A stretch of 64,000 nt of DNA from an uncultured Verrucomicrobiota bacterium (lineage in GTDB: Bacteria > Verrucomicrobiota > Verrucomicrobiia > Opitutales > Seribacteraceae). Below, piece by piece: positions 33,186 through 59,695 of the stretch. The stretch lies in contig CACMQL010000005.1 of assembly GCA_902615835.1 (NCBI GenBank), positions 1-64,000 on the forward strand, given 5' to 3'. Numbering within the stretch: position 1 is the first letter of the stretch; each line of letters begins with the position of its first letter. The position numbers and the translations under genes were made by a program. The notes under the pieces are model-generated. The model was given only the letters and a program-made list of their open reading frames with translations. It did not search any database and had not been told where the DNA came from.

Positions 33186-36100
33186 AATCTGATCCGCCTG
33201 ATATCATGGTAATCGACGATATCCTGCCTAAAGTATCGACCTCATAGCTCGCAATTGCTCCATTACCCGACCCTGTGTAGTCCGTGATTTGCAAAAAGCC
33301 GTTATTGTAACCTGTCCCTGACTGCAATATTTCAATTTCTCCGATGCCTCCAATCAGAAAAGCTTTGGCCTTGGCCATTTGCATGGGTCTGTTTTGAAGA
33401 ACGGCTCCATCTTCTCGGCTAATTTCATGCTCAAGCAAGTTGGATGATTTGGTTGAAAAAACAATACTCATGCCATCCGAACTGATGGCGGGTTCCCTGC
33501 TTGGCATATTCCCTCCCACCCCGTCTTGACTCTGGCTAACCCTGATGATGGATGTATGAGGATTCACGGTTCCGGTTCTGTATATCTCCCCTTCAGGATT
33601 GACTAAATGTGCCTTCAGAACCGCAACTTGCAGGGGAGAAGGATAAGAAGGATCAGCCACCAAGACTACGGTTGGATTCTGATAGTTTTTCCCGGGACTG
33701 ACAATTTCTATGGCATCCGGAATTAATTGTCCGTAAGGATCAAGCCCGCCTTCGCGGATTGTCAAAATTGCTCCTTCGCCCACCCCCTGGGTGTCCAGAA
33801 TCTGAATGGATGGGTTGCCAAAGTATCCGACTCCTCCGCTTTCCACAACAATGTTCGCAATACCAGCCTGCCCGACAAGGTTTGTGGCCTTGGATCTAAA
33901 GACCACATAGTTACCATCTCCGCTGATTTGTACCTGATCAGACGGGCCACCCTCCGTCGTTTTATTCATGTCAGTCACGCTCATAAGGGTAATTTTATTG
34001 GCATTTGTGCTCCCTTCATCATAGAGGAAAACATCTCTCAGTAAGTTGTTGTCCGTATTCACCAAATTTGTGGCGTCTGAAGAAAATGCGATCTTGTCAC
34101 CCAGATCACTCACGGATGGCTGATAACTATCCAAATTACCTGCAGTGACCGTGTAAATCTCGTCAACCTGGCCCGACACCCTTTTCCAGAGATGAATTTG
34201 TTTGTAATTGCCGGGGGCTATTCCCTTGGTGGTAAGATTACTAGCCCTTGACTCGAAAGCGATGATTGAACCGTCCGAATTGAGGTTTGGATAAAAACTG
34301 GCTCCATTTGCTTCCATCCCACTAACCGGGTTGATCAAACGGACCAGCCTGTCCTCATTCACAAAATAGACAAATATATCTTCCACTCCATTCTTATCGG
34401 ATGGTACAAGATCACTAGCTCGAGAATGAAAAACAATCGTGGTGCCATCCGCACTTATCCTGGGACGCAGGCTGCTACCATTTCCTCCTCCATCTTCAGT
34501 CAATGATTTACTTATCAGCAACGCACTCCGGTTGGAAATTCCTTGGTCAAAAACATTGGCCAGGTAAACCTGCTGGTTTCCTTGCTCGTCAGTTAGTTCA
34601 TATGTTACCCACCTGCCATCGGCACTGGTATCCGGTCTTTGCCTTGGTGGAGATTTTCTCGCATAGGCAAGTTGGAGTCCAAGTTCTTCTCGTGCTTGAT
34701 TTAAAGTATTAATTTCGTTGAGAATACCAGGTACATTAAATTCCAAGGCCGTGTCTATAATCACATTTATCTGCTCTTCGAGGTCAAACATCTGGTTGAT
34801 GATCGACGAGGATTCATTATTCTCATCGTAATCAATGATGTTAATTTGACCCTTGTTCTTTGACTTCAGGGTAATGCTCGGGGTGTTGTTGAGCACGAAT
34901 ACCTCAGCCGTCGCACCCGTTTCTAGAATACGTACTAGAAGATAATAGTCCCCCTCCAGGTTGTCAGGCATCTGTTGAATCCAATTAAGGTTGATTGTTT
35001 CATTGGGACGCAAATTGGCCCCCAACGCTCCGCCCCCCAAATCGAATTCCCGGAGAATAAAATCTTCGGTATTAAAGCTGTCATCTTCGGAAAGGGCGAC
35101 GACAACCGTGCAGTTATCTTCTTCACGAACGGGAACATTACCATAATTTCTCAGGGAGAATCCCAGTTTTACGGGGTCAAGGCCCGAGAAGGCACCCGTC
35201 TCGCCACTGAAGCTATTCTGAACCACTCTTAGATCCACCGTCCCGGGATTTACGATGAAGGAAAATAGGTGACGATTGTTGGACTCGTCCAGTTCTTCAA
35301 TTAAATCACCTTGTGGATTTATGAGGATTTCATCCTCTGGAGTATCGGCAATAATTTGTATGGAATAAGTTCCACTTGCATCATCAGGTAGTTGGAGATT
35401 GGAGATTTCAAATGGAATTGACGCACCTTGCATAATTGTGGGTTCCGTTACTCCATCGGACCCCGGTAAGAGAATTCTCTCCGTATCCAGACTCAGTGCT
35501 TTGGAGATTAAGTTGTTAGACCCAGGTTCGGTCAGGTCACCTGCAAACAGCCTCGCTTCCACTGGGAACCTTACACCTGGCTGGGTCATTGCCTGTCCAA
35601 CATTGGAAAGGATTCCGTCCACTCGGATTCGGTCGCCTGGTAAAAATGTAGTGTTTAGTTGCCCGGTGAGAGGATCCCGCGAGCGAATTTGAGGATTACT
35701 CTCTATAGTTAGATCGGGCACATGAAGATAAATCGAATGGGGGCTGGTGGTATTATTCGTCAAATTTATTTCCAGGGAAGGGCTGGATACGGTTGCCACC
35801 AAACTCCATGTGTTGTCGTCGTTGCTGTATGGTGTATTGTCACCCCCAATGAACCATTTTTGAGATTCGGACCAGGGCATTTGAATATTTACCTGTCCAA
35901 TATTAGTTGAAGTATTATCCAATCTATTTTCTGCAGGAGCCGGATTCGTGAAGCCATCCCAACTTTGGACATGCTTGAAGATGATGTTTCCATAAGGATC
36001 GATGAGTTCAAGTGTGGCCGTGACTGTTTCCCCCACCACCGCTGAAGAATTTCCTTCGTGATTTACAATTGCCTGCACAGAAAACACATCGCCAATTTCA

Positions 36101-36237
36101 ACAAAAGTTGGGGGAGTTACCACAAAGCTGATTGATAAATCCGTAGTGTTTTGTCCAAGGGAATGTCTGCAAAGACCGCATATGGCTATCAAAACCAACA
36201 GGAAATTTTTAAGAAGAATTGAGGTTTTCGGAATCAT
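33019..36237 (-). CDS. Giant surface protein 2, N-terminal part (CARDB-like and TolB-like domains), frameshifted
   Basis: I place the start at ATG 36237, which overlaps the stop of the upstream giant gene (ATGA) and begins a clear signal peptide (SILLKNFLLVLIAICGLC). An ATG 12 bases further upstream is less likely. Residues ~30-460 hold three CARDB-like beta-sandwich units with NxG-type loops (VGQAMTQPGVRFPVEARLF, RNYGNVPVREEDN). Residues ~530-760 are TolB/PD40 propeller blades: RPDTSADGRWVTYELTD, RPRISADGTTIVFHSRASDL and YPNLNSDGSIIAFESRASNL. GxGY repeats follow (ESGGVGYFGNPSIQILD). After NPGGG the frame runs into ~50 residues of unrelated sequence and stops at 33019, so the last part is a frameshift artefact or a short alternative product. 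Confidence 0.8.
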   Translation of the reverse strand: MIPKTSILLKNFLLVLIAICGLCRHSLGQNTTDLSISFVVTPPTFVEIGDVFSVQAIVNHEGNSSAVVGETVTATLELIDPYGNIIFKHVQSWDGFTNPAPAENRLDNTSTNIGQVNIQMPWSESQKWFIGGDNTPYSNDDNTWSLVATVSSPSLEINLTNNTTSPHSIYLHVPDLTIESNPQIRSRDPLTGQLNTTFLPGDRIRVDGILSNVGQAMTQPGVRFPVEARLFAGDLTEPGSNNLISKALSLDTERILLPGSDGVTEPTIMQGASIPFEISNLQLPDDASGTYSIQIIADTPEDEILINPQGDLIEELDESNNRHLFSFIVNPGTVDLRVVQNSFSGETGAFSGLDPVKLGFSLRNYGNVPVREEDNCTVVVALSEDDSFNTEDFILREFDLGGGALGANLRPNETINLNWIQQMPDNLEGDYYLLVRILETGATAEVFVLNNTPSITLKSKNKGQINIIDYDENNESSSIINQMFDLEEQINVIIDTALEFNVPGILNEINTLNQAREELGLQLAYARKSPPRQRPDTSADGRWVTYELTDEQGNQQVYLANVFDQGISNRSALLISKSLTEDGGGNGSSLRPRISADGTTIVFHSRASDLVPSDKNGVEDIFVYFVNEDRLVRLINPVSGMEANGASFYPNLNSDGSIIAFESRASNLTTKGIAPGNYKQIHLWKRVSGQVDEIYTVTAGNLDSYQPSVSDLGDKIAFSSDATNLVNTDNNLLRDVFLYDEGSTNANKITLMSVTDMNKTTEGGPSDQVQISGDGNYVVFRSKATNLVGQAGIANIVVESGGVGYFGNPSIQILDTQGVGEGAILTIREGGLDPYGQLIPDAIEIVSPGKNYQNPTVVLVADPSYPSPLQVAVLKAHLVNPEGEIYRTGTVNPHTSIIRVSQSQDGVGGNMPSREPAISSDGMSIVFSTKSSNLLEHEISREDGAVLQNRPMQMAKAKAFLIGGIGEIEILQSGTGYNNGFLQITDYTGSGNGAIASYEVDTLGRISSITMISGGSDYDLENTFISVDNPGGGLWFSGRSHQDEPGLRTGRCQGRGWKNPSRGDDRTRNWIR
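33139..33147 (-). other. Nine-G homopolymer at the frameshift junction
   Basis: On the minus strand the sequence is CCCC followed by nine G and then CTCTGG. With nine G the upstream frame reads NPGGGLWFSG and soon stops. Removing one G gives NPGGGSGFQAG and opens the 2831-residue frame. The two frames overlap from 33019 to 33185. The total span of 36237-24690 is 11548 bases, which becomes a multiple of three after loss of exactly one base. A long G tract can reflect phase variation, transcriptional slippage or a homopolymer sequencing error. Confidence 0.85.
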
Positions 36238-39200
36238 CTTATTTTCCATTCATTATTAAAAAATTCATAGACCCGCGTACTGGGGTTATCCATGTCAAAT
36301 TTTCCCCAACCTGATTTCTGGAAATCCTGAAAATGGATGAAAAAGTAGGGAAAGGTGTTGTTTTCTTTGGTAGACCACCACCAGGTATTGTAATGAGGAT
36401 CCCAGGCCCAGAATCCACTCCCTTCGGAAAACTCAATATAAAGCCATCCAAGTTTTGCATGAAAAATCCAGTTCTTACTACCGGCGTAAAAATCGCCAAA
36501 CCATGAAGATTGATACCAATGAGTGGATTGATTGTAAACGGCGTCGAAATTCGAATAATCCATGATGCCCGCTTCTTGTGTGGAAAGTTCCTTGCTCGTA
36601 CGGTTGGGTCCTGAGGAAGAAGAGGCTTGCTCGCTTTCAAAAAACTCATATTCACGGACACCCGTATCATTCAAATTGAATTTTCCCCATCTGGAATTTT
36701 GGTCATCTTGGCCATGTAGAAAAAAGTAAGGGAATAGTTGATCCTGCTTGGTTGACCACCACCAGGATTCGAAATGAGGATCCCAGGCCCAAAAGCCGCT
36801 TTTTTCAGAATGCTCAATATAGAGCCAGCCGAGATTTTGATGATAGAGCCAGCCATCGTTACCCGGAAAAAATTCACCAAACCATTCCGATTTATACCAT
36901 GAAGTACCTGTGTCCAGAACAGCGTCCAAAAGGTAATAATTAGGGGAAGACATTCTTTGAATGGCATCATCTGTGGAAATATTATCGAAATTGTCAGCAC
37001 TGGTAAGGAGTCCATTCAAAAAGTCAGTCTTACCATTGTTATCATCCAGTTTGAAGATCAGGGTTAGGGCATTGTTTTCACTCAATAATATTTCAACATC
37101 AGATGCATCAAGCACCACGAGTTGATAATCCGAGTTTATGCCAAATGCAGAAAGTTGATCGCCGTCAATGTCTAATTGATCTGTTTCATCAACCAGGGAA
37201 ACCGTCACCAAGTCTCCATCTGCATCAGTGATAATAAGTTGTTCTAAAATTTCGCCCATCTGGAATTCAGTCTTCCCGAGTGCGGTACGGAAATCTATTC
37301 CTTCCGGCCCAAAATTGTTTACAGTGGAAATTTCCCCGGCAATTGCCTGTAAAGTATTTAGATCACTGTAATTTTGAAGGGTGTCTAAACTAATAATTCC
37401 TTGATTAAACATATCATACCCTGCCAGAACTTCTTCTTCGATGGCAATCTGCTTCTGAGATAATTCCTTTAATATTACACCTGGCGTTACAGATTGGAGT
37501 GAGCTATCCGCAAGTAAAAGATTAGAATTTTTCAGGACTTCCGTGTAGGAGGACAAATTTTCACTTTTTACAACCGCTGACGGGTCCAGTTTTCCGATCG
37601 AGCCCACAATCAAATTCTCGAGCGTGTCTGACAATTGCATTTCGGTCTCGAGGGAAACCCCGCTGGTCACGAATTCACTTAGTTGTTCAGCCACCTTCGA
37701 GGAGATATCTGATGGGTTGGCGTTCAAATTGGTAGACTGCGTGATTGCGGTCACTTGTTTTAATGTATTGGCAACAATGGCATTGGCACGGAGGACGGCT
37801 GTCGTATTCATGTCACCGTTTTTGGCCGCTAGGATGGGGTCGTAATTTGTAACATCTATAGACGTTGAATAACCAAAAGAATTCGCCAGTTTACCTTGAG
37901 CGTTTGTCTTCGAATGACCATCTTTGATCAGCTGATGTAGAATCGTGGTTAAGGGACTGATAACCGTAGAATTTGCATCTGATACCAGGGAGCTTGTAAA
38001 TGGCTGGTTGGTGGTTGTGTCCGTTCCGCCGGAAACAAAAATGGAACCCTCCTCCGGGTCGATAACTCGATTTCCGTTTGAATCAATCAACGAAAAATCT
38101 TCCTCTAAAAAGAATAAATCGAAGCTTCCGTTTTGATCAGTGGTTCCGGTTACACTTAAGTAGTTTAAACTGGGATCGGTGGGAAAAAATTCCACCGAAG
38201 AACCACTTAAATATCCATCAATTGCAACACCCGCAATTTTGTACGCCGACTTTTCAAATGAGATGGTTAACGGTTGATTCTCTACCCTATTGCCTGCAGT
38301 GTCGGTAACGGCAAAATAAATCGTCTGATTGGACTCCGTGTTTTCATCCAGAAGATTCATTCCCGTAACCTCTATCTTAGCGGATAAATCCCCATCCACA
38401 TTGTCGGTTGCAGTCACATAATTGTCGGGCAGTTGAAAAGGCACTCCAAGTAACCAACTAATACTTGCGTCATCCTTATGAAAATGAAGCGTGGGTGGGG
38501 AAAGATCTGCCACTCTAATGGTAACATATTCTGTGGTTGATCTACCGAAATCATCCTTCACATACAGGGAAATCGGGTAGTCATTAGACATTAGATAATC
38601 GACTGCACCGGTGACTTCTACTTTGGAAGTTATATTTCCGTCAGGATCATCCGTTGCACTGAAAAATCCGGTGGGGTTCCATACCGTTCCCAATGGCCAT
38701 GGATAGGGATTACTTTGTATGGTGATAACCGGATCAGCATCATCAATTAACTCAATTTTGCGCGACACTGGCTCAGAGATGAGTCCTCCGGAATCGATAG
38801 CCAAAAAGCTAAGGTCGTAAGTTCCATAATTTGCATTCGCATTTACCAAAAAACCATTACTTGTCTGAGTTAGGATGCTTAATGCACTCCCGCTGACATA
38901 AATGCTCGTTGGCGTTTCCGAATTAGTAGTGAGAAGCGGGCCAGTCCAATTGGAATCTATGTCATCAAGTGCAATCACGGAGGGAAGATAGAGGTCCCCC
39001 CTCTTCAAATTAATGACATCGTCATACGCATCAAAGAAGTAAAGGTCGGGAGGATTATCGCGAAAAGTAAGATTGGCTCCTGCCTTATTTTCAGATAACA
39101 AACCTGTCCATTCTGCAAGCACTTCATTTTGGTCATGAATACCATTTTTTACGCCCGAATCAATAAACGCACAAACCCGATAATAAAGGCCCGCCTGAAG

Positions 39201-42200
39201 ATTTTTGAAAAGAAAGGATTGTGGAAATTCGCTTGGCTTCAAGCTGTAGGAAACATTCCTGGTGTTTGGCAAACCAAAGGTGGTGCCTGTTTCAATTCCA
39301 AGATACAGGTCGCCAGATCGGGGGGTTGAATTATAAATGATTCCATAAATTGCCACCCCGCTATCGCCTGTGCCGCCCAAAAGCGGATTACTATTGAGCA
39401 CCTGCGTTTCATTGTAGTCTGAGATTCCATCCCCATCAGTATCCACAAGCGTAGGATTCGTCTTGTAGGTCTGTGTTTCATTATAATCCGACAAACCATC
39501 CACATCCGTGTCATTTGTGTCAGGGCTTGTCGAGTAGACAAACTCTTGGTTATTCGAAAGTCCATCGCCGTCCATGTCCGATGACCACCACTGGTCAGTT
39601 TGAGGGTAAAAACTGTCACGATACTGATTGAGCCATTTTTCCCGCGGAGTGAGAGAATTTCGCCCGGAGGCTAAAATTCGTACTTTGTCTTTCAAAACAA
39701 CACCACCTCCTGTCGTGTAATTTGCTTCCAGGGTAAGCATGCCCCCGACAATTGGCTTGAGTGCCGCTCCATTGCCTAGAGTGTCCTCGATTACAACCAA
39801 TTCATTCCCATTATACCCCGTGCCTTTATTCACAATAGAAATGCCTGTAAGATTGCCGTCGGCATTTGTATTTATGGTGCCTCTGAACCCGTCTCCTGCT
39901 CCAACCAGGGTAACCGATGATCCGTATACATATTTTGTCCCCGAGTCCAAAATTTTAAAGTCGATAATACCACCACTACGCATCGTTGAAAAAAGTGTTA
40001 CCTGAGTATCTTGTCCGGTTTGGGTGCTCAAATGAGCAAGCCTGCTGGAATTGGTTTCATAGGAGTCGTTAAAATCAAAGGTGAGATTCCACTGAACATT
40101 TGCCAGGTTCGCCCCTAAGTCGATGCCATTCACGTCAAAAACTGTTGCACGAAAAGTCTGGTTGGCGTCCGAGTTTGCCTTGTTGGAGATGGAATAAAGA
40201 GGAACTTCAACAAAGTTTGTCCCATTTCCATCGCCCGGGGTAATTGTCAATCTTGGCTGTCCTTTGTTCGGTGAATTTAAACTTCCCCCCCAGGAGGAAT
40301 GGGCACTCAGGGAGGCGGAGTAATCCTCCTTGAAGTCAATTCCACTTATGCTGGAAGAATAATAGACCGTGAATTCATCATTGGGGTTGAAAGTGGACGA
40401 ATTTTCATCATCCAAAATCGTAAGATTCAGTGATCCATCTGTGTTGGCGACAGCGACAATGTTGGGCGTGCCGAATCCCGTGTTGGAAAGGCCGGGAAGA
40501 ATTATCATTTCCGGCTGGTCTCCCTGCTTAAAACCCGTGCCAATCCCTTCCAATACCTTGTTTGCTTGATTTTCCCGTTCAGCCGCATTTAAAGTTCCAA
40601 GTGGGCGAGACAAACTGCGTGAATTCACGGACCATTCCAACTTGCTCCTTCCCATCCCTTTGTTATCTGTAATCACATGAAGATTTGGCATACCCGGGAC
40701 ATGGATGATTTGAGACACCATTTCTGGACTGGAAACGGGACGGAAGGTTGATTCCTGAAAGTTTTTGTCTTCGAGAAAAACTGCCACATTGTACATGCCC
40801 GGTTCCAGGTTAGGCATCACATAGTATCCATTTTGATCGGTGAAAACCGACATGTTTCTCTCCTGCGGTTCATTTTTTCCCCATGACATACCCGGAACGG
40901 GATCGGAAATCTCGATTTTCCCGCCCATTGCCGGAAAGTATGCATTCCCCCGTCCGAATCCATAATAAAAATCATCGGGTATACGGTCGTCCACATACAG
41001 ATCAAAGTATCTTCCCTTCGTTGAGTTCAAAAAGTTTCCGTTTCCATTTGCCCGAAAAAAGCTACTTGCGTTTTGTTCAACCGTATCGATGAGCGTGCCT
41101 GCCTCATCAATGAGATAAAGATTCGGTCTTGCCGAGAAAAGACTCCGCCAGCGCCATTGACTCTGATCGTTGGCTGGTGTTCTATCATAGTAGGTTGCGT
41201 TCTTGTCAAAGTTCATTTTGGTAAGCCTGTAGGTGGTGCGTGCCGTTATGTTGGCTTCCTTAAATCCGGAAATACCCGAGCCATTGTAATCAACTTTTAT
41301 TTGAAAGGAAGATCTGGCTGAATCAAAAAGGCCAAAGTCATCAATCCGGATGGTTTCGATCCTGTCGCCAAATCCATTCGAACTAAGGTTAAAATCTCCA
41401 TATTGCCACTCGTATCCCGGGCCTCTTTTCACCTCCGGACCATAGTTTCCATCATTATCATCATCGTAGCTCCCGGTCATTATTTTTAAGCTCTCCAAAC
41501 CATTTGCATCATCCCATGACCATGGTCGCTCAACGAAGCCCATCCCTGCACCGGATGGATTTGTGATATTGTCAGTAGCCAGGTTTTTCCTTTTCGGGTC
41601 ATCAAAAATGAAACCCGTGTTTAATCCGTCGTTATCAATTAGGGGTATTGCTTCCACACCGGATCCGCTACCCACCACCGCTACTTCATCCCCGATGTAC
41701 ATATCACCCCCGTAATCCACCCGAATTTCGGAAATTTTGCCCCGGTCAGAAACTACCGTAAGATTAGCATCCCATTTTTTCCAATTATCATAAGGAGCAC
41801 GATAACTGTTGTTGGTCAGGACAAAATTGGCCTTTTTGCCACTGCAAACCCGACTCTTGAAGCCTGCATTGTAGTGAGTGTGTGATGCATTACTTTCTGC
41901 ATTTTCATTGGGACCACACCGGTTTAGCGTTTCAAAAACTAAAAGCTCGCTGGTATGCGAGTCTTGCCAATTCTCCAAAGTCGATGTTCCATTATAGTCT
42001 TCCTCTCCCGGACATTCTTCAGGGGGGAATGCACCGACCTGGGTATGTCCGCAAGGAATCAGTTTTCCCTCCTTGGTTTCTCTCAGATTGGTGCATCTCC
42101 AAACTCTTTCATTATGTCCATAGCCCCATGAATAAAAGTAGCCACTCATATGATCACGATGACTCGGCGAAACCGCATGCACTCTTGCCACCGGATCGAC

Positions 42201-45200
42201 ATATCCATTACCCGGATCCACCACAATGACCTTTTCTATTTTTCCGTTTTTTACCTTTGGAACCGCATAGGCACGTTGAGAAACGCTGTTCTCTGTCCTG
42301 TTCCTGTCCCAAATTTCAATCCATGGATAAATATGGTCATGGACATCCCATAGTGTACTCCTTTCAGTTCCCTTTATACTTGTGCACAGCTGACAGGGTT
42401 CGATCCCGGTTATATGTCCGCCACCCAAATTCAATTGAAGCGATGCATTTTTTTCAGAGGAGCTAAGGGTGGAATCAGAGACCAGGAACGCCTTGGGATA
42501 ATTGTCGGGAACCACATTTTGATAGCCTCTGCCCCCTTGGGTCACGGATAGGTGACGGATTGAGTGGAGCGATAAAAAATCACTCCCATTGACTTCATTT
42601 AAGAGGCTTGTGCCATCTCCTTGCAAAAGAACAGCACCTCCACCAAGATCAGGATCGAAAAGGGTGGTGGTGGCATTAAGCTCGGTCAAAAGGTCAATGA
42701 CGGAACTCCCGGTTTTAAAGCGGATGGTTACATTACCATCAAAGGTGGCACTGCTCGCAAAAGGGGTAACTTCAATTTGTTGGGTGATGGTCTCGTCCTG
42801 TTTAAAGTATACTCGTGCATATTGAGAGCTGCGGTTCAGGTCAGCTACGGTGGGACTGCGCAATAGATTGGGATTAAGCAGCCCGATATTGACCGCGTCC
42901 TTGCCTATGGTGAGGATAAATCTTTCCCCCAATGTAGCGTTCGCCTCCGCCCCATTTCCTCCCCCTCCGGTGATGACAATTTGAGGATAGGTATGATATC
43001 CGTACCCCCCATCGATTACACTTACAGAATTATTACCTTCAGTGATACTTCCATTCACATCGGTCATTCCTTGGGCTATTTGCAGTTGTGCGATTTGAAA
43101 GTTAGGTACCAGATTATTGTTTCTTACCCAGGATGAAAGATTACTTCTGCTTGGTGATGCCCCCAGCGTATAGATTTCAAGGGGCATGTAATATCCAAAA
43201 CCGGAATCCCCTATCTCAAGATGAGAAATAGTTTGGTTGACATCAATCAAGTTGTTCGCAGTTGGATCGTAAAATGGCAATTCAACGGATGTGCCGGACG
43301 CGGATAACGGAATGCTTGGCACGAATTCGTGGGACTTTGAAATGGGGTTATCCAGATTTCCGTTGGTCGGTGTTACTTGAATAGTGACCAGATTTTCCAA
43401 AATGTAATCATAATCCGTGTCCAGTGCTTGTAAATCAAAGAAATCGAGTCCTCCTTGAGTAGATGAAATGGTAGTTGAGGATTCATTCCTGATGATTATT
43501 TTCTGGTCATCTATTACATCGCTCACAATATAACTGGCTGTGCTTTGGAGCTGAGTTCCCAGAGTGTAGAACTGTCCAAAGCTAAGCCTGTCGCCCACAC
43601 GAACTTCTTGGGTGAAACGGGTTGAGGGATTCCCAAGAATGGTGTCAAAAATAGTGAATTCTCTCATCGTTGTGTTGTCCGGATTTCGTGTCCACAAGCT
43701 CATGAGGATGTCTTTATTTTGCCACAAGGTTGGCATTGCTATGGGATTATCAAAGAATGTTCCTCCATAGCTGGTAATTCTCGGGGTAATTTCTTTTCCC
43801 ACAAGGAAACCCTTTGGCTGAAAATGAGTATTCGTATAACCAAAATTTCCGTCAATTTTCAAAGTGGATGCTAGGTTTAGCGTAATGGGTAGAGTGGGAT
43901 TAAATGTGGCCTGTCCTGCATGTTCTTCCTCTTGGTTGATAGGCACGCTGATGGTGGTTGGATTTCCAAAAACATCGGTCCCTCCAACGATTTGATTTTG
44001 CTTGGGCTGAAATCCCCTGCCGTTTACGTGGGCAACACTGGATGGATCGGTGCCTAAACCGTTGGAAGTAAGCCCTTGGCCAGGGTTGATAATATTTGCG
44101 GTATCATCACTTGCCGGGTCTAAAAAGAACAGGCTGTACGCGGTAGCATTCTGATCAGTGGGAGAACCTCCCACTTTGAGGGAAGGTGGCGTTGCGTAAC
44201 CAAACAACCCTGGTGAGGGCACTGCATTCGTTCCATTATATTCAACATATTCCAGAAATTTGCGGGTAACATTTCGATCATCCGGTAGCTTGATTTGGGT
44301 CAAGGTATCCATTTGTTTGGTCCATATAATCTTTTCAACCTGGGTCGCATTCATTTCAGGCGTGCCCACTGCTCTTTGATAAAGACGCCAGGCACTGTTG
44401 TTTTGGTCATCTCTCCATGTGGTGTCCGAGTCGGGGCGTGAGAAATGAAAACTGTAAACCAACGACTCATCTTCGACGAAACGCAACTGTCCATGCGAAG
44501 ATTGTCCAAGGGAATCATTGAGGTCCGCTCGGGTTGCAACTGACTTACCAGTATCAATCAAGTCCTGAGTAAGGTTCCCATCCAATCCATAGGAAAATTC
44601 CGCCGTTGGTTGCTCCTTATATCCATTACCACTCGAAGAAAGCTTGACGGTTCCAATCGCATCCACCACTGCTTCCAGCCTGGGAACCAGTTCTCGTCCC
44701 TGGTTCAAATTGTATAGAAAGGAGACATCATCCTGCGAAAAATTACTCTCGGCATAGATGTGAATATCATCGAGATTTCCATTCAAGAAAGAGGTCCTAT
44801 TGCTGTCAAGATGCTTACCGAATGCAAGATGATCCATTCCCTGTACATCGGCTAGGAAACCGGGCTGTGCTCCACTACCACCGGCATATCCCTGGGTTGT
44901 TTTAGCCTGCCCATCAATCCAAATATTTTGGGATGTGGCACTGGTTGTGAGAAATATATGATGCCATGCATTGTCGTTGATGGGGTCCTGTGCGTAGTAT
45001 CTGGTGACTTCGGTTCCATCATTGATCAGGACCGTTTCCAAATTCCCATTCGCATTTACGAGAATCTGAAAATAAGTGTCATTGTCATCACTCTTGGAAC
45101 CACTTAATATAACTGCGTCTGTGCTTGACGTTTTTATCCAAAACCCCACGGCTCCCGCTGAAAGTGCAGAAAACTCCGATGAAATATGACTCAGGTCAAG

Positions 45201-48200
45201 ATAATCGTCTCCGTCTAATTTTGCCGAACGCCCATGGTCCTCATTATTAAAACTGTCTCCCAGTCTACCAACCCTGCCATTTTGCACGTTGTTGGGCACG
45301 GGCACATTTGAATCACTTCCATTCATATTGGGAGTGGACATGTTGAAATCATTACCTATTGGAGCGATGTGTCTCTTATTGCCTGAAAGATCAAGATATT
45401 GCCGTCCAGCCAAGACTTTTATTTCCGTTGATGTAAGAGCGGTATCGTAAATATATAATTCGTCAATCACACCATTGAAGGCATTAATTGTGAGATCTGT
45501 ATCTTTCGTGATTGGACTTTGGGCGGCACCTGTAGTGTATCCATCTACATAAAGCGTATAATTATTATCGTCAACTGCCACAACTGCAAGGTGTCCCCAC
45601 TGATGCAGAGTTGTGGTTCGAGCTTTTTCGTCATCTTTGAGAAAGTATTTACGTGCCATGCCTGTGCTTTGAGTGGAAGTTACGGGACTGGAAGCGAAAG
45701 ATAAGCTTATTGGAGCTTCAGGGTCGGGTAATATCCATGCTGCAAAAGTGAAAGGATAAGCGGATGGAATTACTCCTGTAGCAGATGTCGCGTTATTGTC
45801 AGTAGCGTGAAGTCTTAAAGCCCTTCCCTTTATCCCCCATGTCGAGCGATTAAGGTCTGATAAGTCTGCATTTGCATTCCATGTGCTTAAACTAAAGGGA
45901 GTGCCATTGCCACTAGTCGGCTGGTCTGCAAGGACAGTCCCATTTTCTTCATCGAAGCTCCAATAGTGAATTATATTATTGGGCAGCAGTGGCTTATTCC
46001 AGGCAGGAGATGGAGAATATCTGGCATAAGTGGGATCATCATAAAGGGTTTCATGTCGGTCAAAAGTCCACACAGCAAAGGGTATAAAAGGATAATGAAG
46101 AACCGCCATGGTGGCATTGGGCTCAAAACCGATCCCTTGATTAGAAATATCTATTGAACGATAATAACGGCTAGGGTTGCTTGTGCTGCTAGAACTAACG
46201 GTAGCATTTGCTTCTGTGCCCGTCCCCCAAATGACTAAGTTTGGTATTGGGTCATTCTGTGCAAAGACTTGCCAACGATTGCTCAGGAAACCATTATCGG
46301 CATTGGAGGGAGAAATCGTTCCCACTCCATCCACATACGCTACCGCGGTGGCATTTGCGTTGGTGTAATCCTCCCACAGGCTTTCCCGCATTATTTTTAC
46401 ACTTGGCGGATTATTACGGTCATGACCCTGCCCTCCATAGACAATGTAGTTTCCGAATTCATCGGCCTCAACCGGACGGATACGCACGCCGGTAATGTTC
46501 GTATCTGCAAGCAAAGATTTGGCGAATGGTCTCGTAATCTGGAATTCCTGATCTTGTTGACCGAGAACATATCCTGAAGTTTCGAGGTCTTGTAGTTCTT
46601 TAATGGTGGAGGTTTCCTTGCTAAAATAGGAGGAATGTAATCCGGTTTCGGTGGAATTGACCTCCGGGTTGGTTGTATATCCGTCACCCTGATCATCCAC
46701 CATGGGCGTAATTTTCATTCTTATTTCAACACGGGGAGCTTCCGTTTCCGGTTGATCAAAAAAAGTCAGACCATATTGTGCTGCCGTATCATCAAAATAA
46801 AAACGATGAATTTGTCCCCGATAAAAATTCAATTGTGGGGCTGTTTCCCCGTCAATTTTATAGACCGTGGGTGAGTTTGATCCAGTTGGCAAAAACCAAT
46901 CCCGTTCACTGCCTTCCATGGAAATGCTATGCTCAATAAGATCCGCTTTTGAAAATGCTACCCTAGCTCCCTGAATGCTTCCATGACCTGAAAAAACCGT
47001 TCCCGATACAGATGATGTTTCACTGTGTTGGTAGTCGCCCACATTAAAGACTACATTCTTGGAGGCAATTGCTCCTTTCATGTCAGAAACCACCAACCGG
47101 ACGACATGCTGCCCCGCGGTCTCAAAGACCTTGGTTACGGATTGCCGGTTGAGATAATATCTTTGATTTTCCTGGACTGCTTTGGGGGATGGGTATTCAA
47201 TCACAAAGGTAAGCCTTTCAGACTGATTCAAATCGTTCCATTCCCCGGCATATCCATAGGGCCAATCCTCAAGAGCAACGGCAAGACCAACTTGATCTTC
47301 GACGCCGTCATTGAAATTATCAGGTTCAACAAAGCCTTTTGATCCCCATTTTTGAAAAGAGAAAGGTTCCCCGTTTTCCCATGTCCAGACACGCTCGGTT
47401 TTGCTTCCTCCTATCCAAAAATAGGCTGTCCCATCAACTGCCAGGTTCTGGTTCTCCCCATGTAGAACTTTACCCAAGGATAAAGGAATTGCTCGGCTGT
47501 TCATGTCCTTCGAGACCAAAGCATAGATTTCATTAAGTTCTTCTAAGGAAGATATACAGGCTAAATGCCCACCCCTTGATTGGGCGAAGGAAACCGCTTC
47601 GTGGTAGGACAGTCTTTGATTTACCCATTCGTAGCGGGCATTACTGTTATTTTCCGGATCCACCTCCATCTTTTCATTGGTAAACCAACCATAAGCATAA
47701 TCCGTGTTTGAGTTGTTAAACTCGACTGTTATTTCAACTTCTTCTCCGACTTGTGGCATTCTTGTAGAAGTTTCAACTGTGAAATCCTCTACATTGGCGG
47801 TATCAGCCGTACCCACATTTACCACTACATCCAAATATTCCATCGGTGAAATCCCTCCCTTGGCGATCGGTGTAATGTGAACATCACTGTCATAGTCTGA
47901 AAAAGTATGCCCCAGCATCAAAAAACAGTCCGTAAAATCACCGGGTGTATTGGGAGTCATGTCAAGCAAGCCATGTTCTATTGTGGAATAGTTGTAATCA
48001 TAGACACTTGAGATGTGGGCATCTGATTTATATCCATTGATTACAGTCAGGCCTTTTTCCTTTGCTGAACGACGATAGGAAATCCAATAGGACTGGAAAG
48101 AAATATCTTGAGGATTATTCAAATCCAAATCAGGGTACTGAACGGTTTTGGGAGATAATTTTGATGCATTGACCTCCAGTCCCCTGATTCCACGGGAGGC

Positions 48201-51197
48201 CCCGATGGACCGGTTTCTCAATTCCGCCTGTCCGAAGCTGTCCATTCCCGTCCCATTTTTAACCATAATTTCACTTGGATTTAGATCCATAAGCTTTTGT
48301 CCATTTGTATCGATTATGCTAAGGGTTGGTTCTTCCGAATAGCCCTCTCCCGGAGTGACAATCGTAAGCGTGGGTGAGGATTGGGATAAGTCCAGGGTTG
48401 CTTCCGCTCCTTCCCCGGTTCCGCTGATCAATAGGTCGTTTGAATAAAGTTGATTTTGCAGCCAGGCAAGTAATGTATCGTCCATTTTGAGGTGATATTC
48501 TCCTTCCCTTAAAGGATACGGCCCATTACCATGATCGTGCCTGTAAATACGAAAGGTGTTAGTTGGTAAGCTCGAATTTCCAGGCATTGAAAGATCTGTT
48601 GTTAACAGATCCGCAGCTGAGTCAATTTTCGCCACATCCACTCCTTTTTGTTTTCCTACCGACAGGCCAAATCCCATATTATCTTTCATTTTTACTTTGG
48701 CTGGGATGGTGAGGTCTCCTGCACTTACTGGGGCAAGGTTACCCATGATAGAATATGGATTGGCATCTTCCACAATCTCACCGTCATCACTATTCGGCTT
48801 TTCACTTCTGGAAACATACAGATTGGCATGATGAAGACCAAAATTATGGCCCAGTTCATGGGCAATGGTTGATGAAAACATTGGGTTTCCGGGTACACCC
48901 CCGGGCGCATAGAGAGGATCGTAAATTCCACCATTTTGTTTCCATTTTGCCGGGTACCAAGGATTTGGATTGGGAGACATCACATGAGACCCAGGTGCCC
49001 CTATTCTTCCAAGTCCCCAACTGTTGCGTCCATCACCTGCATAAGAGGTAACAATCACCCAGCTTACGCAAATTCTCCCTACATTTATTTTCGCCACCCC
49101 GTTGAACACTTTTCCATCGAGTAGTAATGAAACCGGGTTGTTGCTATCAATCGGGTAGTAATACGCACCCGGATCGGTAACCTTGAAACTGGTTACTTGT
49201 CCCGCTTCATTGACTATTGCCTTGACTGTAGCCGCTTTAAATTCGGGATCGGGATTTCCATCGTTGTTGAGATTTCCACCTGATATGGTTACCTCAGGTG
49301 GTGTGGAAAAGTTTCCTTCAATCATACCGCTTGATGAATTGATGTCTATAGATGACACTCCCATGAAAGCGGGGCCGTAGAAGTCCCATTTTCTGTCAGC
49401 CATGGATGCTTTCAATAGTGCATTTACCCCGAGGTCGTCGATTAGATCGTAAGCATTTTCACTGGTTACAAATTCCGTAACATTGCTGTCGTACTGCGTA
49501 CTCGTGGCGGATGACGGGCTACCAGTGAAAGGAATATAGCTGTATTTGTCATAGTCCAATGTAACAGTCGGTGAAATAACTGCATCCAGATAGAAAGAGC
49601 CATCCGAATTACGAAGATAGAATTGTTTGACTTCTTCCATAGCTGCCTCCAATGCGGCCTGAGATACGGGTTCATAGGAATCTTTGGCGGTTCCGGAGAA
49701 AATGGGCCTTCCCAGATTATCCAACTTTATTTCTCCTGCACCATCATAGAAGATTCCTTCATCTTTAAAACGGGCAGGGATAACCAAGACTTTCCTGTAT
49801 CCATCAACGGAAACTATGGAGTTGGTCGGGTCCAACCCATTGTCATATTCGATTATATAAGGCAGCCGCACCGCAGCATTTATTTCATTCCACTTTCCTG
49901 TTCCAGATAAAATAGATGCGTAGGAATTGGTTGAATTAGGTTCTTGTACATTCCAGTTGCTGTATCCATCGGAAACATCGTCTCCACTCAACCACTTCCA
50001 GTCTCCCTTTTTTGCTTCAATCAATATTTGCTCAGTCAAGTTGGTATCCCTATTCAAGGTCGTACCTGACTGAAGTGGATTGTCTGTCAATCCAAGCCAT
50101 GCCTGAGCAACATTTGACTGTGAAAGTAAGTTTTGAATGTAGGCATTTTCAGATGCTGATCCGATGCAAACAAGCCTTCCCTTATTCAATGATGCTGTGT
50201 TATTGGCTTCTGCCCAAGTTGCTAGCGTTGGTACTAACTCGTACCTTTTTTCAAGGTATTTTGTAACCCCGTTACTGCCAGCTGCGTATGGATATTTAAA
50301 AGTCGAAAAAGATCTTGATGCCCGCCTCATGGTCATACTTGATTCATCCTCAAGTCTTGATTCCTTTAGGTCCTCGGAGAGGGCAAATTTGTTTCCGGCT
50401 AACTCAATATTATCAGCTGCTGAAATTTCTTTTTCTTGATGAATGGGTTGGCTGGCAATTTCTATGCTTTTCTCGATAGCAACTCCATAACTGGACAGTC
50501 TTTCTACTTTGACAAGATTTTCTCTCTCTCCATTTAGGTAAGCATTAAATTCTCTTTCCTTTGTCTTTTGTTTGGTGCTTACCCTGGAAATTGAATGGTC
50601 GTTACCCTTACGCCCAAATACACTTTCGAGATCTCCAGGCCCCTCATGCAAAACTTCTCGACTTTTCTGTGTGTCAGTTAGTGGGTTCTGTGTGATTGAA
50701 GCTAAGAAATCAGGCTTGAGATCACTTTTTGAATCCTTCATAGCCAAGATTTCAGGTTCGCTCGCGCGCGTGCGAGGAAGCATACTTCCTATTTGATTGA
50801 ATTGCTTGAACCTGCCTAGATCTTTTCTCTGGCTGTTTTGTGTATTTGCATAAGTTATTTCTTGAACTGAAAATGCCCAGCCATCAATGGCATCCAATTT
50901 TTGCTTGGAATCTTTTGGGGGAATTGATTGCGTAGTAGAATCTATCGGTTCTTTTTCAGCCTCACTCGCTAATAAATTAGTCTTGGTCTTAATATTTTGT
51001 GAAATAAATTCGTTAGGTTTGGTTCCTTTTGGTGGTTCTTCTTTGGATGAATAAGTGGTAATCCTGTTTGAGGTTTCTGTGAGGATTAGAGCAATAAAAA
51101 AGGCGAATGCGAGAAAATATCCGCAAAAACTAATCCCAAAATCCCTGCTTCCACTCAAAGTGGTCTTGAGTTTATTAAATTTCAAGGGGAAGGGCAT
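36234..51197 (-). CDS. Giant surface protein 1 (metzincin, C-type lectin, LamG, TSP3, Trp-rich repeats)
   Basis: One uninterrupted frame of 4987 residues. A membrane anchor or uncleaved signal lies near 24-43 (FCGYFLAFAFFIALIL), then ~250 charged, probably disordered residues. Two C-type-lectin-like domains are at about 315-450 and 1190-1330 (RGGHLACISSLEELNEIYAL, TAYFWIGGSKTERVWTWENG). Between them is a metzincin protease: HELGHNFGLHH near 778 and the Met-turn YSIMG. LamG-like domains are at about 1740-1900 and 1980-2165. A Cys/His-rich island spans 2935-3130, a carboxypeptidase-regulatory-like beta unit is near 3455, TSP3-type Asp repeats are at 3874-3937 (DMDGDGLSNNQEF) and HYR/DUF5011-like Ig units at 4150-4320. 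Two Trp-rich repeats end it. The start is ATG, 42 bases after the secretin stop. Probably displayed on the cell surface. Confidence 0.88.
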   Translation of the reverse strand: MPFPLKFNKLKTTLSGSRDFGISFCGYFLAFAFFIALILTETSNRITTYSSKEEPPKGTKPNEFISQNIKTKTNLLASEAEKEPIDSTTQSIPPKDSKQKLDAIDGWAFSVQEITYANTQNSQRKDLGRFKQFNQIGSMLPRTRASEPEILAMKDSKSDLKPDFLASITQNPLTDTQKSREVLHEGPGDLESVFGRKGNDHSISRVSTKQKTKEREFNAYLNGERENLVKVERLSSYGVAIEKSIEIASQPIHQEKEISAADNIELAGNKFALSEDLKESRLEDESSMTMRRASRSFSTFKYPYAAGSNGVTKYLEKRYELVPTLATWAEANNTASLNKGRLVCIGSASENAYIQNLLSQSNVAQAWLGLTDNPLQSGTTLNRDTNLTEQILIEAKKGDWKWLSGDDVSDGYSNWNVQEPNSTNSYASILSGTGKWNEINAAVRLPYIIEYDNGLDPTNSIVSVDGYRKVLVIPARFKDEGIFYDGAGEIKLDNLGRPIFSGTAKDSYEPVSQAALEAAMEEVKQFYLRNSDGSFYLDAVISPTVTLDYDKYSYIPFTGSPSSATSTQYDSNVTEFVTSENAYDLIDDLGVNALLKASMADRKWDFYGPAFMGVSSIDINSSSGMIEGNFSTPPEVTISGGNLNNDGNPDPEFKAATVKAIVNEAGQVTSFKVTDPGAYYYPIDSNNPVSLLLDGKVFNGVAKINVGRICVSWVIVTSYAGDGRNSWGLGRIGAPGSHVMSPNPNPWYPAKWKQNGGIYDPLYAPGGVPGNPMFSSTIAHELGHNFGLHHANLYVSRSEKPNSDDGEIVEDANPYSIMGNLAPVSAGDLTIPAKVKMKDNMGFGLSVGKQKGVDVAKIDSAADLLTTDLSMPGNSSLPTNTFRIYRHDHGNGPYPLREGEYHLKMDDTLLAWLQNQLYSNDLLISGTGEGAEATLDLSQSSPTLTIVTPGEGYSEEPTLSIIDTNGQKLMDLNPSEIMVKNGTGMDSFGQAELRNRSIGASRGIRGLEVNASKLSPKTVQYPDLDLNNPQDISFQSYWISYRRSAKEKGLTVINGYKSDAHISSVYDYNYSTIEHGLLDMTPNTPGDFTDCFLMLGHTFSDYDSDVHITPIAKGGISPMEYLDVVVNVGTADTANVEDFTVETSTRMPQVGEEVEITVEFNNSNTDYAYGWFTNEKMEVDPENNSNARYEWVNQRLSYHEAVSFAQSRGGHLACISSLEELNEIYALVSKDMNSRAIPLSLGKVLHGENQNLAVDGTAYFWIGGSKTERVWTWENGEPFSFQKWGSKGFVEPDNFNDGVEDQVGLAVALEDWPYGYAGEWNDLNQSERLTFVIEYPSPKAVQENQRYYLNRQSVTKVFETAGQHVVRLVVSDMKGAIASKNVVFNVGDYQHSETSSVSGTVFSGHGSIQGARVAFSKADLIEHSISMEGSERDWFLPTGSNSPTVYKIDGETAPQLNFYRGQIHRFYFDDTAAQYGLTFFDQPETEAPRVEIRMKITPMVDDQGDGYTTNPEVNSTETGLHSSYFSKETSTIKELQDLETSGYVLGQQDQEFQITRPFAKSLLADTNITGVRIRPVEADEFGNYIVYGGQGHDRNNPPSVKIMRESLWEDYTNANATAVAYVDGVGTISPSNADNGFLSNRWQVFAQNDPIPNLVIWGTGTEANATVSSSSTSNPSRYYRSIDISNQGIGFEPNATMAVLHYPFIPFAVWTFDRHETLYDDPTYARYSPSPAWNKPLLPNNIIHYWSFDEENGTVLADQPTSGNGTPFSLSTWNANADLSDLNRSTWGIKGRALRLHATDNNATSATGVIPSAYPFTFAAWILPDPEAPISLSFASSPVTSTQSTGMARKYFLKDDEKARTTTLHQWGHLAVVAVDDNNYTLYVDGYTTGAAQSPITKDTDLTINAFNGVIDELYIYDTALTSTEIKVLAGRQYLDLSGNKRHIAPIGNDFNMSTPNMNGSDSNVPVPNNVQNGRVGRLGDSFNNEDHGRSAKLDGDDYLDLSHISSEFSALSAGAVGFWIKTSSTDAVILSGSKSDDNDTYFQILVNANGNLETVLINDGTEVTRYYAQDPINDNAWHHIFLTTSATSQNIWIDGQAKTTQGYAGGSGAQPGFLADVQGMDHLAFGKHLDSNRTSFLNGNLDDIHIYAESNFSQDDVSFLYNLNQGRELVPRLEAVVDAIGTVKLSSSGNGYKEQPTAEFSYGLDGNLTQDLIDTGKSVATRADLNDSLGQSSHGQLRFVEDESLVYSFHFSRPDSDTTWRDDQNNSAWRLYQRAVGTPEMNATQVEKIIWTKQMDTLTQIKLPDDRNVTRKFLEYVEYNGTNAVPSPGLFGYATPPSLKVGGSPTDQNATAYSLFFLDPASDDTANIINPGQGLTSNGLGTDPSSVAHVNGRGFQPKQNQIVGGTDVFGNPTTISVPINQEEEHAGQATFNPTLPITLNLASTLKIDGNFGYTNTHFQPKGFLVGKEITPRITSYGGTFFDNPIAMPTLWQNKDILMSLWTRNPDNTTMREFTIFDTILGNPSTRFTQEVRVGDRLSFGQFYTLGTQLQSTASYIVSDVIDDQKIIIRNESSTTISSTQGGLDFFDLQALDTDYDYILENLVTIQVTPTNGNLDNPISKSHEFVPSIPLSASGTSVELPFYDPTANNLIDVNQTISHLEIGDSGFGYYMPLEIYTLGASPSRSNLSSWVRNNNLVPNFQIAQLQIAQGMTDVNGSITEGNNSVSVIDGGYGYHTYPQIVITGGGGNGAEANATLGERFILTIGKDAVNIGLLNPNLLRSPTVADLNRSSQYARVYFKQDETITQQIEVTPFASSATFDGNVTIRFKTGSSVIDLLTELNATTTLFDPDLGGGAVLLQGDGTSLLNEVNGSDFLSLHSIRHLSVTQGGRGYQNVVPDNYPKAFLVSDSTLSSSEKNASLQLNLGGGHITGIEPCQLCTSIKGTERSTLWDVHDHIYPWIEIWDRNRTENSVSQRAYAVPKVKNGKIEKVIVVDPGNGYVDPVARVHAVSPSHRDHMSGYFYSWGYGHNERVWRCTNLRETKEGKLIPCGHTQVGAFPPEECPGEEDYNGTSTLENWQDSHTSELLVFETLNRCGPNENAESNASHTHYNAGFKSRVCSGKKANFVLTNNSYRAPYDNWKKWDANLTVVSDRGKISEIRVDYGGDMYIGDEVAVVGSGSGVEAIPLIDNDGLNTGFIFDDPKRKNLATDNITNPSGAGMGFVERPWSWDDANGLESLKIMTGSYDDDNDGNYGPEVKRGPGYEWQYGDFNLSSNGFGDRIETIRIDDFGLFDSARSSFQIKVDYNGSGISGFKEANITARTTYRLTKMNFDKNATYYDRTPANDQSQWRWRSLFSARPNLYLIDEAGTLIDTVEQNASSFFRANGNGNFLNSTKGRYFDLYVDDRIPDDFYYGFGRGNAYFPAMGGKIEISDPVPGMSWGKNEPQERNMSVFTDQNGYYVMPNLEPGMYNVAVFLEDKNFQESTFRPVSSPEMVSQIIHVPGMPNLHVITDNKGMGRSKLEWSVNSRSLSRPLGTLNAAERENQANKVLEGIGTGFKQGDQPEMIILPGLSNTGFGTPNIVAVANTDGSLNLTILDDENSSTFNPNDEFTVYYSSSISGIDFKEDYSASLSAHSSWGGSLNSPNKGQPRLTITPGDGNGTNFVEVPLYSISNKANSDANQTFRATVFDVNGIDLGANLANVQWNLTFDFNDSYETNSSRLAHLSTQTGQDTQVTLFSTMRSGGIIDFKILDSGTKYVYGSSVTLVGAGDGFRGTINTNADGNLTGISIVNKGTGYNGNELVVIEDTLGNGAALKPIVGGMLTLEANYTTGGGVVLKDKVRILASGRNSLTPREKWLNQYRDSFYPQTDQWWSSDMDGDGLSNNQEFVYSTSPDTNDTDVDGLSDYNETQTYKTNPTLVDTDGDGISDYNETQVLNSNPLLGGTGDSGVAIYGIIYNSTPRSGDLYLGIETGTTFGLPNTRNVSYSLKPSEFPQSFLFKNLQAGLYYRVCAFIDSGVKNGIHDQNEVLAEWTGLLSENKAGANLTFRDNPPDLYFFDAYDDVINLKRGDLYLPSVIALDDIDSNWTGPLLTTNSETPTSIYVSGSALSILTQTSNGFLVNANANYGTYDLSFLAIDSGGLISEPVSRKIELIDDADPVITIQSNPYPWPLGTVWNPTGFFSATDDPDGNITSKVEVTGAVDYLMSNDYPISLYVKDDFGRSTTEYVTIRVADLSPPTLHFHKDDASISWLLGVPFQLPDNYVTATDNVDGDLSAKIEVTGMNLLDENTESNQTIYFAVTDTAGNRVENQPLTISFEKSAYKIAGVAIDGYLSGSSVEFFPTDPSLNYLSVTGTTDQNGSFDLFFLEEDFSLIDSNGNRVIDPEEGSIFVSGGTDTTTNQPFTSSLVSDANSTVISPLTTILHQLIKDGHSKTNAQGKLANSFGYSTSIDVTNYDPILAAKNGDMNTTAVLRANAIVANTLKQVTAITQSTNLNANPSDISSKVAEQLSEFVTSGVSLETEMQLSDTLENLIVGSIGKLDPSAVVKSENLSSYTEVLKNSNLLLADSSLQSVTPGVILKELSQKQIAIEEEVLAGYDMFNQGIISLDTLQNYSDLNTLQAIAGEISTVNNFGPEGIDFRTALGKTEFQMGEILEQLIITDADGDLVTVSLVDETDQLDIDGDQLSAFGINSDYQLVVLDASDVEILLSENNALTLIFKLDDNNGKTDFLNGLLTSADNFDNISTDDAIQRMSSPNYYLLDAVLDTGTSWYKSEWFGEFFPGNDGWLYHQNLGWLYIEHSEKSGFWAWDPHFESWWWSTKQDQLFPYFFLHGQDDQNSRWGKFNLNDTGVREYEFFESEQASSSSGPNRTSKELSTQEAGIMDYSNFDAVYNQSTHWYQSSWFGDFYAGSKNWIFHAKLGWLYIEFSEGSGFWAWDPHYNTWWWSTKENNTFPYFFIHFQDFQKSGWGKFDMDNPSTRVYEFFNNEWKIR
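36240..36545 (-). repeat. Trp-rich C-terminal domain, copy 2 (giant protein 1)
   Basis: It encodes WYQSSWFGDFYAGSKNWIFH, LGWLYIEFSEGSGFWAWDPH, WWWSTK and FPYFFIHFQDFQKSGWGKF and ends the 4987-residue protein. Aromatic residues make up roughly a quarter of the unit. Confidence 0.85.
36625..36945 (-). repeat. Trp-rich C-terminal domain, copy 1 (giant protein 1)
   Basis: It encodes WYKSEWFGEFFPGNDGWLYH, LGWLYIEHSEKSGFWAWDPH and a WWWSTK segment, then FPYFFLHGQDDQNSRWGKF. The next copy lies 381 bases (127 residues) downstream with strong identity, including a shared DNA block around ATGAGGATCCCAGGCCCA (36774 and 36393), which indicates a fairly recent tandem duplication. Confidence 0.85.
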
Positions 51198-59017: not shown

Positions 59018-59695
59018 TTAATTTCCTGAAGTGGCGGGCAACAGGTAGGCACCTTTCTGAAAATAAGATGGGAATATATGGTGAGCTGGCACCAAGACTC
59101 CACTATTTCCAGAGCTCTTTTCCTCTGCCTGTTGTTTAAATTTGAGCAAGGTTACTTCATCGCGATATTTGTCAAATACTATCGAATTTGATAATTCCAC
59201 AGGAACACCTTCTAAGTGTATTTCTATGGCATAGCCAACGGGGGTTATGTAGCCTGATCCAAACTCATCTTTCTCCGCTACAGCCGCAGGGAACATAAAA
59301 TTTGCATACTTAGTATTCCTGTCTACCTTTATTGTCTTAAACTCTACTTCTGCCCGATAATACTGATAGAACTGCGAGTCCATCAACTGACTTGACCTAA
59401 GGACCTTCTTTTTAAATCCATTACTAAAACATATGTATAGCCTTATTTTCACATCTTCGACAAATTCCGGGTTGAAAGCCTCCTCAATCGTAGTAGGTCT
59501 ATTCCCCTTGAGATTTTCAATCCTTGGATGAGTGATGATATTAAATGGTACTGATATCTTTAACCAGCTATCTGTCTCGGATGTAATCGTAACTTTATTG
59601 GCAATCTTTGCATATTGATCACTTTGTGCATGGAGGCCTACAAAAACGAATTTTAAAAGTAGGCACAGGATTGTAAGAAATGCTATGTTGCTCAT
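59018..59695 (-). CDS. Exported beta-sandwich protein, Amuc_1102-like
   Basis: A 225-residue protein with a clear signal peptide (NIAFLTILCLLLKFVFVGLH, cleavage near AQS). The mature part is strongly beta-patterned (SETDSWLKISVPFNIITHPR, VKIRLYICFSNGFKKKVL, YYRAEVEFKTIKVDRN). Akkermansia Amuc_1102, located beside amuc_1101 and 1100, is an Ig-like protein related to archaeal pilus components. Length, export and gene order match, but I could not align them. I chose ATG 59695, since the TTG at 59758 would put 21 charged residues before the signal peptide. It lies 36 bases upstream of the pilM-pilN gene and is the first gene of the minus-strand block. The C-terminus is Ser/Gly-rich and hydrophobic. 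Confidence 0.6.
   Translation of the reverse strand: MSNIAFLTILCLLLKFVFVGLHAQSDQYAKIANKVTITSETDSWLKISVPFNIITHPRIENLKGNRPTTIEEAFNPEFVEDVKIRLYICFSNGFKKKVLRSSQLMDSQFYQYYRAEVEFKTIKVDRNTKYANFMFPAAVAEKDEFGSGYITPVGYAIEIHLEGVPVELSNSIVFDKYRDEVTLLKFKQQAEEKSSGNSGVLVPAHHIFPSYFQKGAYLLPATSGN

Follow-up and report, generated by a model that had tools for sequence, protein, structure and literature searches.

A giant gene fixed behind a secretin in marine Opitutales

The window analyzed here, a stretch of 64,000 nucleotides from a MAG of 1.8 Mb (completeness 60.8%), contains a tract of genes that all lie on the minus strand, as do all features described below. In order, these are a gene in the position of Amuc_1102 (59018..59695; 225 aa from its ATG), a PilM/Amuc_1101-like gene identified with NCBIfam (57227..58981; 584 aa), an Amuc_1100-like gene with a weak NCBIfam match (56100..57230; 376 aa), a gene in the position of Amuc_1099 (54845..56119; 424 aa), a secretin whose best NCBIfam match is the Amuc_1098 family (51240..54761; 1,173 aa), two genes coding for giant proteins (hereinafter giant 1 and giant 2), and two glycosyltransferase genes (23631..24677 and 22504..23634), for which relatives have equal-sized frames in the same place. 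The tract is conserved in a marine Opitutales family as far as the contigs reach, with giant 1 (36234..51197; 4,987 aa) as its sixth gene. In all 14 genomes of the genus and family for which downstream sequence of at least ~3 kb was retrieved, giant 1 is found directly behind the secretin, and the same arrangement is seen in four further named contigs (L061, L066, L068, and L070). The named relatives are marine Opitutales/Opitutia genomes.

The initial annotation had described positions 36234–51197 as a single frame of 4,987 residues. The frame is indeed uninterrupted, with the correction that it belongs to the minus strand, which had been left unstated; the corresponding plus-strand register is full of stops. 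A chance frame is excluded because some 5,000 codons are not expected to stay open at random. An assembly artefact might be suspected from the low completeness of the MAG and from the adjoining giant 2, which is frameshifted at a homopolymer run (see below); against this, homologues of 3,974–5,145 aa occupy the same location across the genus and family (on contigs with the whole uninterrupted gene), in independent assemblies from many species, some of them without a MAG label. These homologues refute both ideas, and the probability that the frame is an artefact or a chance opening is negligible: giant 1 is a real conserved gene. Frame breaks are common in these assemblies; for example, the secretin gene is in pieces in G018:C11, as is giant 1 in G017:C10 and G022:C2.

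Resemblance to the Akkermansia MUL2 locus

The five genes preceding giant 1 follow the order 1102, 1101, 1100, 1099, and 1098, with PilM, the Amuc_1100-like protein, and the secretin being recognisable and the other two assigned by position only. These three genes have the same order as in the Akkermansia MUL2 locus (amuc_1099–1102) taken together with the PilQ protein Amuc_1098; in contrast to that locus, the window proteins score under the curated cut-offs, sequence does not identify the genes at the 1099 and 1102 positions, and the tract adds the two giants and two glycosyltransferases after the secretin. The secretin obtains 396 bits against Amuc_1098_fam (below the cut-off of 750) and PilM 227 bits against Amuc_1101_fam (below the cut-off of 650), yet in each case this is the best of all NCBIfam families, while Amuc_1100_fam is matched by six of eight homologues of the 376-aa protein (best E 6.5e-6). 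The 424-aa protein matched no NCBIfam family, and sequence searches with the 225-aa protein gave no family and no solved structure; a sequence link to solved structures was sought for the 1100- and 1102-position genes and none was found. The idea that the 1099- and 1100-position genes descend from one ancestor is unsupported (hhalign probability 18%). In the window's own genome (G000), two further secretins and two T2SSE-type ATPases are encoded away from the locus (contigs C32, C67, C47, and C36), so that an ATPase to drive the apparatus is absent from the tract. PilY1-type pilus-tip adhesins offer a possible precedent for a large adhesin that belongs with type IV pili; their architecture and operon seem to differ from those of giant 1.

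An Amuc_1098-type secretin is present in 166 of 195 genomes of the phylum, and the full giant 1 was found in this family only; hence, the apparatus would work elsewhere without giant 1. MUL genes are reported to be needed for the accumulation of mucin or mucin products in Akkermansia (PMC12418764, PMC13174399), the only group for which a role in mucin uptake has been described; aquatic Akkermansiaceae share the MUL2 locus in syntenic arrangement, and particle attachment has been proposed for marine Akkermansiaceae (PMC13174399). A word search of the latter paper returned no mention of Opitutales, lectins, or adhesins.

Domain architecture of giant 1

The N-terminus of giant 1 has a hydrophobic segment (residues 20–39; 51081..51140), detected by hydropathy and alignment, which is the sole such segment in the protein. 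In all 14 species compared, it is preceded by two to six K/R residues, and a cleavage motif is not evident in the same set; it may act as an uncleaved membrane anchor. The region that follows (residues ~80–313; 50259–50960), a possible prodomain, is well conserved with conserved cysteines in relatives and diverged in the window protein, which has lost one cysteine kept in the former. Next comes a C-type lectin domain (lectin 1; residues ~320–460; 49818..50240), recovered with Lectin_C as well as by PDB profile and fold matches; at the motifs that mark calcium-dependent sugar binding (EPN/QPD and WND) it reads EPN and WNE, and both motifs vary among relatives. The metzincin domain described below is followed by a beta-rich region common to other verrucomicrobial proteases (residues ~990–1150; 47750..48230) and a PKD domain found by Pfam and alignment (residues ~1140–1385; 47043..47780), which is split by a second Lectin_C domain inserted in one of its loops (lectin 2; residues ~1184–1342; 47172..47648; reading EPD and WND).

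The remainder of the protein comprises two LamG-like domains (Pfam Laminin_G_3; residues ~1800–1927, 45417..45800, and residues ~1995–2156, 44730..45215); about 1,100 residues that match no Pfam family and contain several GxGY-type repeats (41001..44300); a CarboxypepD_reg-like stretch slightly under the Pfam cut-off (residues 3442–3486; 40740..40874); two TSP3_bac repeats (39378..39530; the best being residues 3919–3939); and a Bact_surface_Ig-like domain (residues ~4168–4228; 38514..38696), one of two such stretches counted by Pfam in giant 1. The GxGY-type repeats recur across the protein, with counts that serve as a guide only since the profile was built from the same proteins. The Pfam matches (Laminin_G_3, TSP3_bac, and Bact_surface_Ig-like, two of each) bear out the LamG-like, TSP3-like, and Ig-like units in the order initially proposed.

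Comparison of relatives suggests that these domains differ in age. Lectin 1 and the metzincin, common to nearly all relatives, are evidently the ancestral core in the family, and lectin 2, present in 4 of 27 congeneric genomes with the other aligned relatives lacking it at that place, is evidently a late insertion into the PKD domain. Accordingly, the description of a protease between two lectins holds for this species and its congeners G022, G002, and G007; the other alignable relatives have one lectin only, ahead of the protease. An old lectin bracket around the protease was rejected, lectin 2 being a clean PKD-loop insert of such restricted distribution. That lectin 2 arose by recent duplication of lectin 1 is unlikely: in a genome-scale search it was closer to lectins from other proteins of the genus (36% identity, 47–52 bits) than to lectin 1 (30%, 19 bits).

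More widely, 58 of 289 phylum genomes contain matches to parts of the lectin-metzincin model, mostly in ORFs of ~700–3,000 aa, with the metzincin and the region after it giving the strongest matches. A 1,056-aa protein from Verrucomicrobiales has the metzincin, PKD, and CarboxypepD_reg in the same order as giant 1. Parts of the model are also matched by open frames of 17,083, 9,178, and 7,477 codons in members of the same phylum (G137:C1, G099:C2, and G133:C79, respectively). The occurrence of this metzincin type in verrucomicrobial proteins outside such operons means that the neighborhood of giant 1 may be one of convenience. Giant 1 might then be an ordinary secreted nutritional protease built on a metzincin, PKD, and CarboxypepD_reg that grew by domain gain, its adjacency to the secretin being functionally meaningless, an account with which both the phylum-wide matches and the Verrucomicrobiales protein agree. 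We regard it as unlikely in view of the strict retention of the place behind the secretin in the genus and in other genera of the family, and likewise of giant 2 where visible.

A metzincin with a conserved active site and sporadic losses

The metzincin catalytic domain (residues ~466–850; 48648..49802), delineated by alignment, structure model, fold match, and Pfam, has the zinc site HELGHNFGLHH (residues 780–790; 48828..48860), a motif conserved in relatives, and the Met-turn YSIMG (residues 815–819; 48741..48755), recognised by motif and alignment. Nested in it is a beta-rich domain seen in the model and alignment (residues ~612–717; 49047..49364), which is largely missing from a more distant genus (G028, the same as L071, and G031). 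An earlier structure model of residues 305–1420 (mean pLDDT 69) yielded a match list filled by C-type lectins, leaving the metzincin untested; for this reason, a second model was made of residues 460–905 from 40 sequences (pLDDT 78; pTM 0.81), in which HELGH is modelled as a helix (local residues 313–326; pLDDT ~95). The best 50 PDB fold matches listed are all zinc metalloproteases, nearly all of them classical metzincins, and include adamalysins, ADAM/ADAMTS, and archaemetzincins, as well as InhA2 and Amuc_1438 (E 3e-3 to 7e-2; probability up to 1.00; TM to target ≤0.52); the modest e-values are probably due to the nested domain. The HExxH motif is thus predicted to lie on a helix inside a metzincin-like fold, contrary to the outcome that would have refuted the initial annotation.

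With respect to known families, the window domain gives a partial match around its zinc site that falls below the Pfam cut-offs for the reprolysin-like M12B families PF13574 (24.6 vs 27 bits), PF13582 (22.0 vs 22.4 bits), PF13583 (21.3 vs 22 bits), and PF13688 (21.3 vs 27 bits), and has no Pfam match to Peptidase M11 (PF05548). Reprolysin families of Pfam are hit by 37 of the 40 aligned metzincin domains and M11 gametolysin by 22 (E <0.01). The M11 cut-off is exceeded in three distant relatives. These comparisons suggest a metzincin near the M11/M12B types that belongs to neither. Like the gametolysin-type (M11) and reprolysin-like (M12B) metzincins known from bacteria, Verrucomicrobiota included, giant 1 has HExxHxxGxxH and the Met-turn, and the distant relatives that pass the M11 cut-off display its order of metzincin, PKD, and CarboxypepD_reg; in contrast to these, it adds a lectin in front, the nested beta domain, the PKD-internal lectin 2, and over 3,500 additional residues.

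Most members of the family alignment have HELGHNFGxxHxN as their zinc site; HELGHN is kept in nearly all giant 1 homologues, including members with <45% identity, as is the MG of the Met-turn with the exception of two losses. The glycine of the zinc site is replaced by asparagine in G010, G026, and G017 and by serine in the L056/L069 pair. Zinc-dependent proteolysis by this domain is a prediction. Two relatives have lost the zinc ligands while retaining the surrounding domain, namely L064 (ANLGY...E) and L070 (none recognisable), the latter being encoded directly behind its secretin; these would be natural pseudoproteases. They bring up the alternative of a chiefly structural role for giant 1, as adhesin or stalk, with a metzincin that matures giant 1 itself or giant 2, or is dispensable. 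Most of giant 1 does consist of repeats, LamG and Ig domains, and unassigned sequence, and in L064 and L070 binding or scaffolding would persist without catalysis; however, nearly all other family members, some of them below 45% identity, retain the active-site residues, and no conserved cleavage site was identified. We consider this alternative rather unlikely. The loss of zinc ligands in two relatives suggests that binding may outlast catalysis, with binding or scaffolding as the longer-lasting role of giant 1.

Giant 2 and a shared C-terminal domain

Giant 2, the next gene after giant 1 on every contig of sufficient length, is represented in the window by two frames assigned by Pfam and comparison with relatives: a first part of 1,076 aa with PD40 repeats (33019..36249) and a second of 2,831 aa with Big_7 repeats and a C-terminal domain (24690..33185). 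The two overlap at a run of nine cytosines (33139–33147), the longest G/C homopolymer of the window, and an intact 3,811-aa protein in G011 spans both; giant 2 is thus evidently one gene that is broken in this assembly, and the frameshift may represent either a sequencing error or a slippage switch. Proteins resembling the end of giant 2 are encoded in G056 (1,467 aa) and G038 (~1,220 aa). In G209, the secretin is followed a few kb further along its contig, on the same strand, by a 1,631-aa frame that bears the C-terminal domain.

Both giants end in a tryptophan-rich C-terminal domain of ~90 residues, with two copies in giant 1 that were recovered by profile search (copy 1, 36630..36905; copy 2, 36240..36524). 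No Pfam family covers this domain. At E up to 1e-3, it occurs at 18 places in the window's own genome (G000). Across the 15 loci of that genome that were inspected, giant 2 included, the last copy is 1–29 residues from the stop codon. About 15 proteins of the genome, some exceeding 3,000 aa, terminate in this domain (contigs C1, C4, C9, C10, C13, C21, C29, C37, and C48). By a narrow domain model, it is found in 5 of 195 sampled genomes of the phylum, four of which have 12–26 copies. That it might be a general export signal of Amuc_1098-type secretins is unsupported given this distribution against 166 of 195 genomes for the secretin; it is more plausibly a lineage-specific sorting or anchoring domain.

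Functional predictions for the giant proteins

Our preferred reading is that giant 1 is a membrane-anchored adhesin-protease that serves a MUL2-like apparatus, capturing and trimming glycoproteins; we give it a probability of about one half. It builds on the gene itself, its domains, the predicted metzincin fold, the conservation of the active site, and the gene order with the secretin and PilM, from which we infer surface exposure, an export route, partnership with the apparatus, a glycoprotein substrate, and catalysis. Points that count against this reading are the wide occurrence of the secretin in genomes that lack a full giant 1, the sub-cut-off Amuc scores along with the position-only assignment of the 1099 and 1102 genes, the zinc ligands lost in L064 and L070, the presence of this metzincin type outside such operons, and the modest fold-match E-values. 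A surface location is suggested by the N-terminal hydrophobic segment, the strictly C-terminal anchoring-type domain, and the neighboring secretin. Giant 1 would accordingly be exported with its N-terminus held in the membrane and engage the substrate on behalf of an envelope apparatus that resembles type IV pili and is related to Amuc_1098–1102 (MUL2 and PilQ). Its lectin and LamG domains could bind glycoprotein or polysaccharide particles, and the metzincin near its membrane end may clip the protein part of the held glycoproteins or of partner surface proteins. Giant 2, encoded by the next gene and bearing the same kind of C-terminal domain, would be a co-exported partner. By analogy with Akkermansia, the apparatus may hold on to large glycans or glycoproteins and assist in their uptake. 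Of the surface enzyme first envisaged, which binds glycans and cuts protein, the glycan-binding and protease architecture is thus backed by domains and predicted fold, with surface location and glycoprotein substrate being possible extensions of it.

Taken singly, giant adhesive proteins, MUL2-type loci, and metzincins are all known; a limited literature search found no marine family in which a lectin-metzincin giant has a constant place behind a secretin set of the MUL2 type. Like the giants of PVC bacteria and Omnitrophota and Giant1-5 of Apilactobacillus, as portrayed in the parts of the sources consulted, giant 1 has thousands of residues, repeats, and adhesive domains and belongs to a pair of consecutive giant genes; relative to those portrayals, it is distinguished by a complete protease site and linkage to a secretin/PilM gene set. 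A broader and more speculative scenario, which we consider possible though somewhat unlikely, is that marine Opitutales turned a phylum-wide Amuc_1098-type apparatus into a glycoprotein harvester with two giant arms, the C-terminal domain being their export or anchor signal.

Biological significance

The natural range of protease sites among relatives, from active through altered to dead, would help to separate binding from cutting roles. Should giant 1 indeed function together with the Amuc_1098-type apparatus, it would be a candidate for the substrate-touching part, which is unnamed in those parts of the Akkermansia literature consulted for comparison, and the C-terminal domain would be a candidate marker for surface proteins of this lineage. 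The locus thereby bears on how Verrucomicrobiota may attach to and take up large glycans and glycoproteins, both on the gut side (mucin) and on the ocean side (fucoidan and other sulfated glycan).
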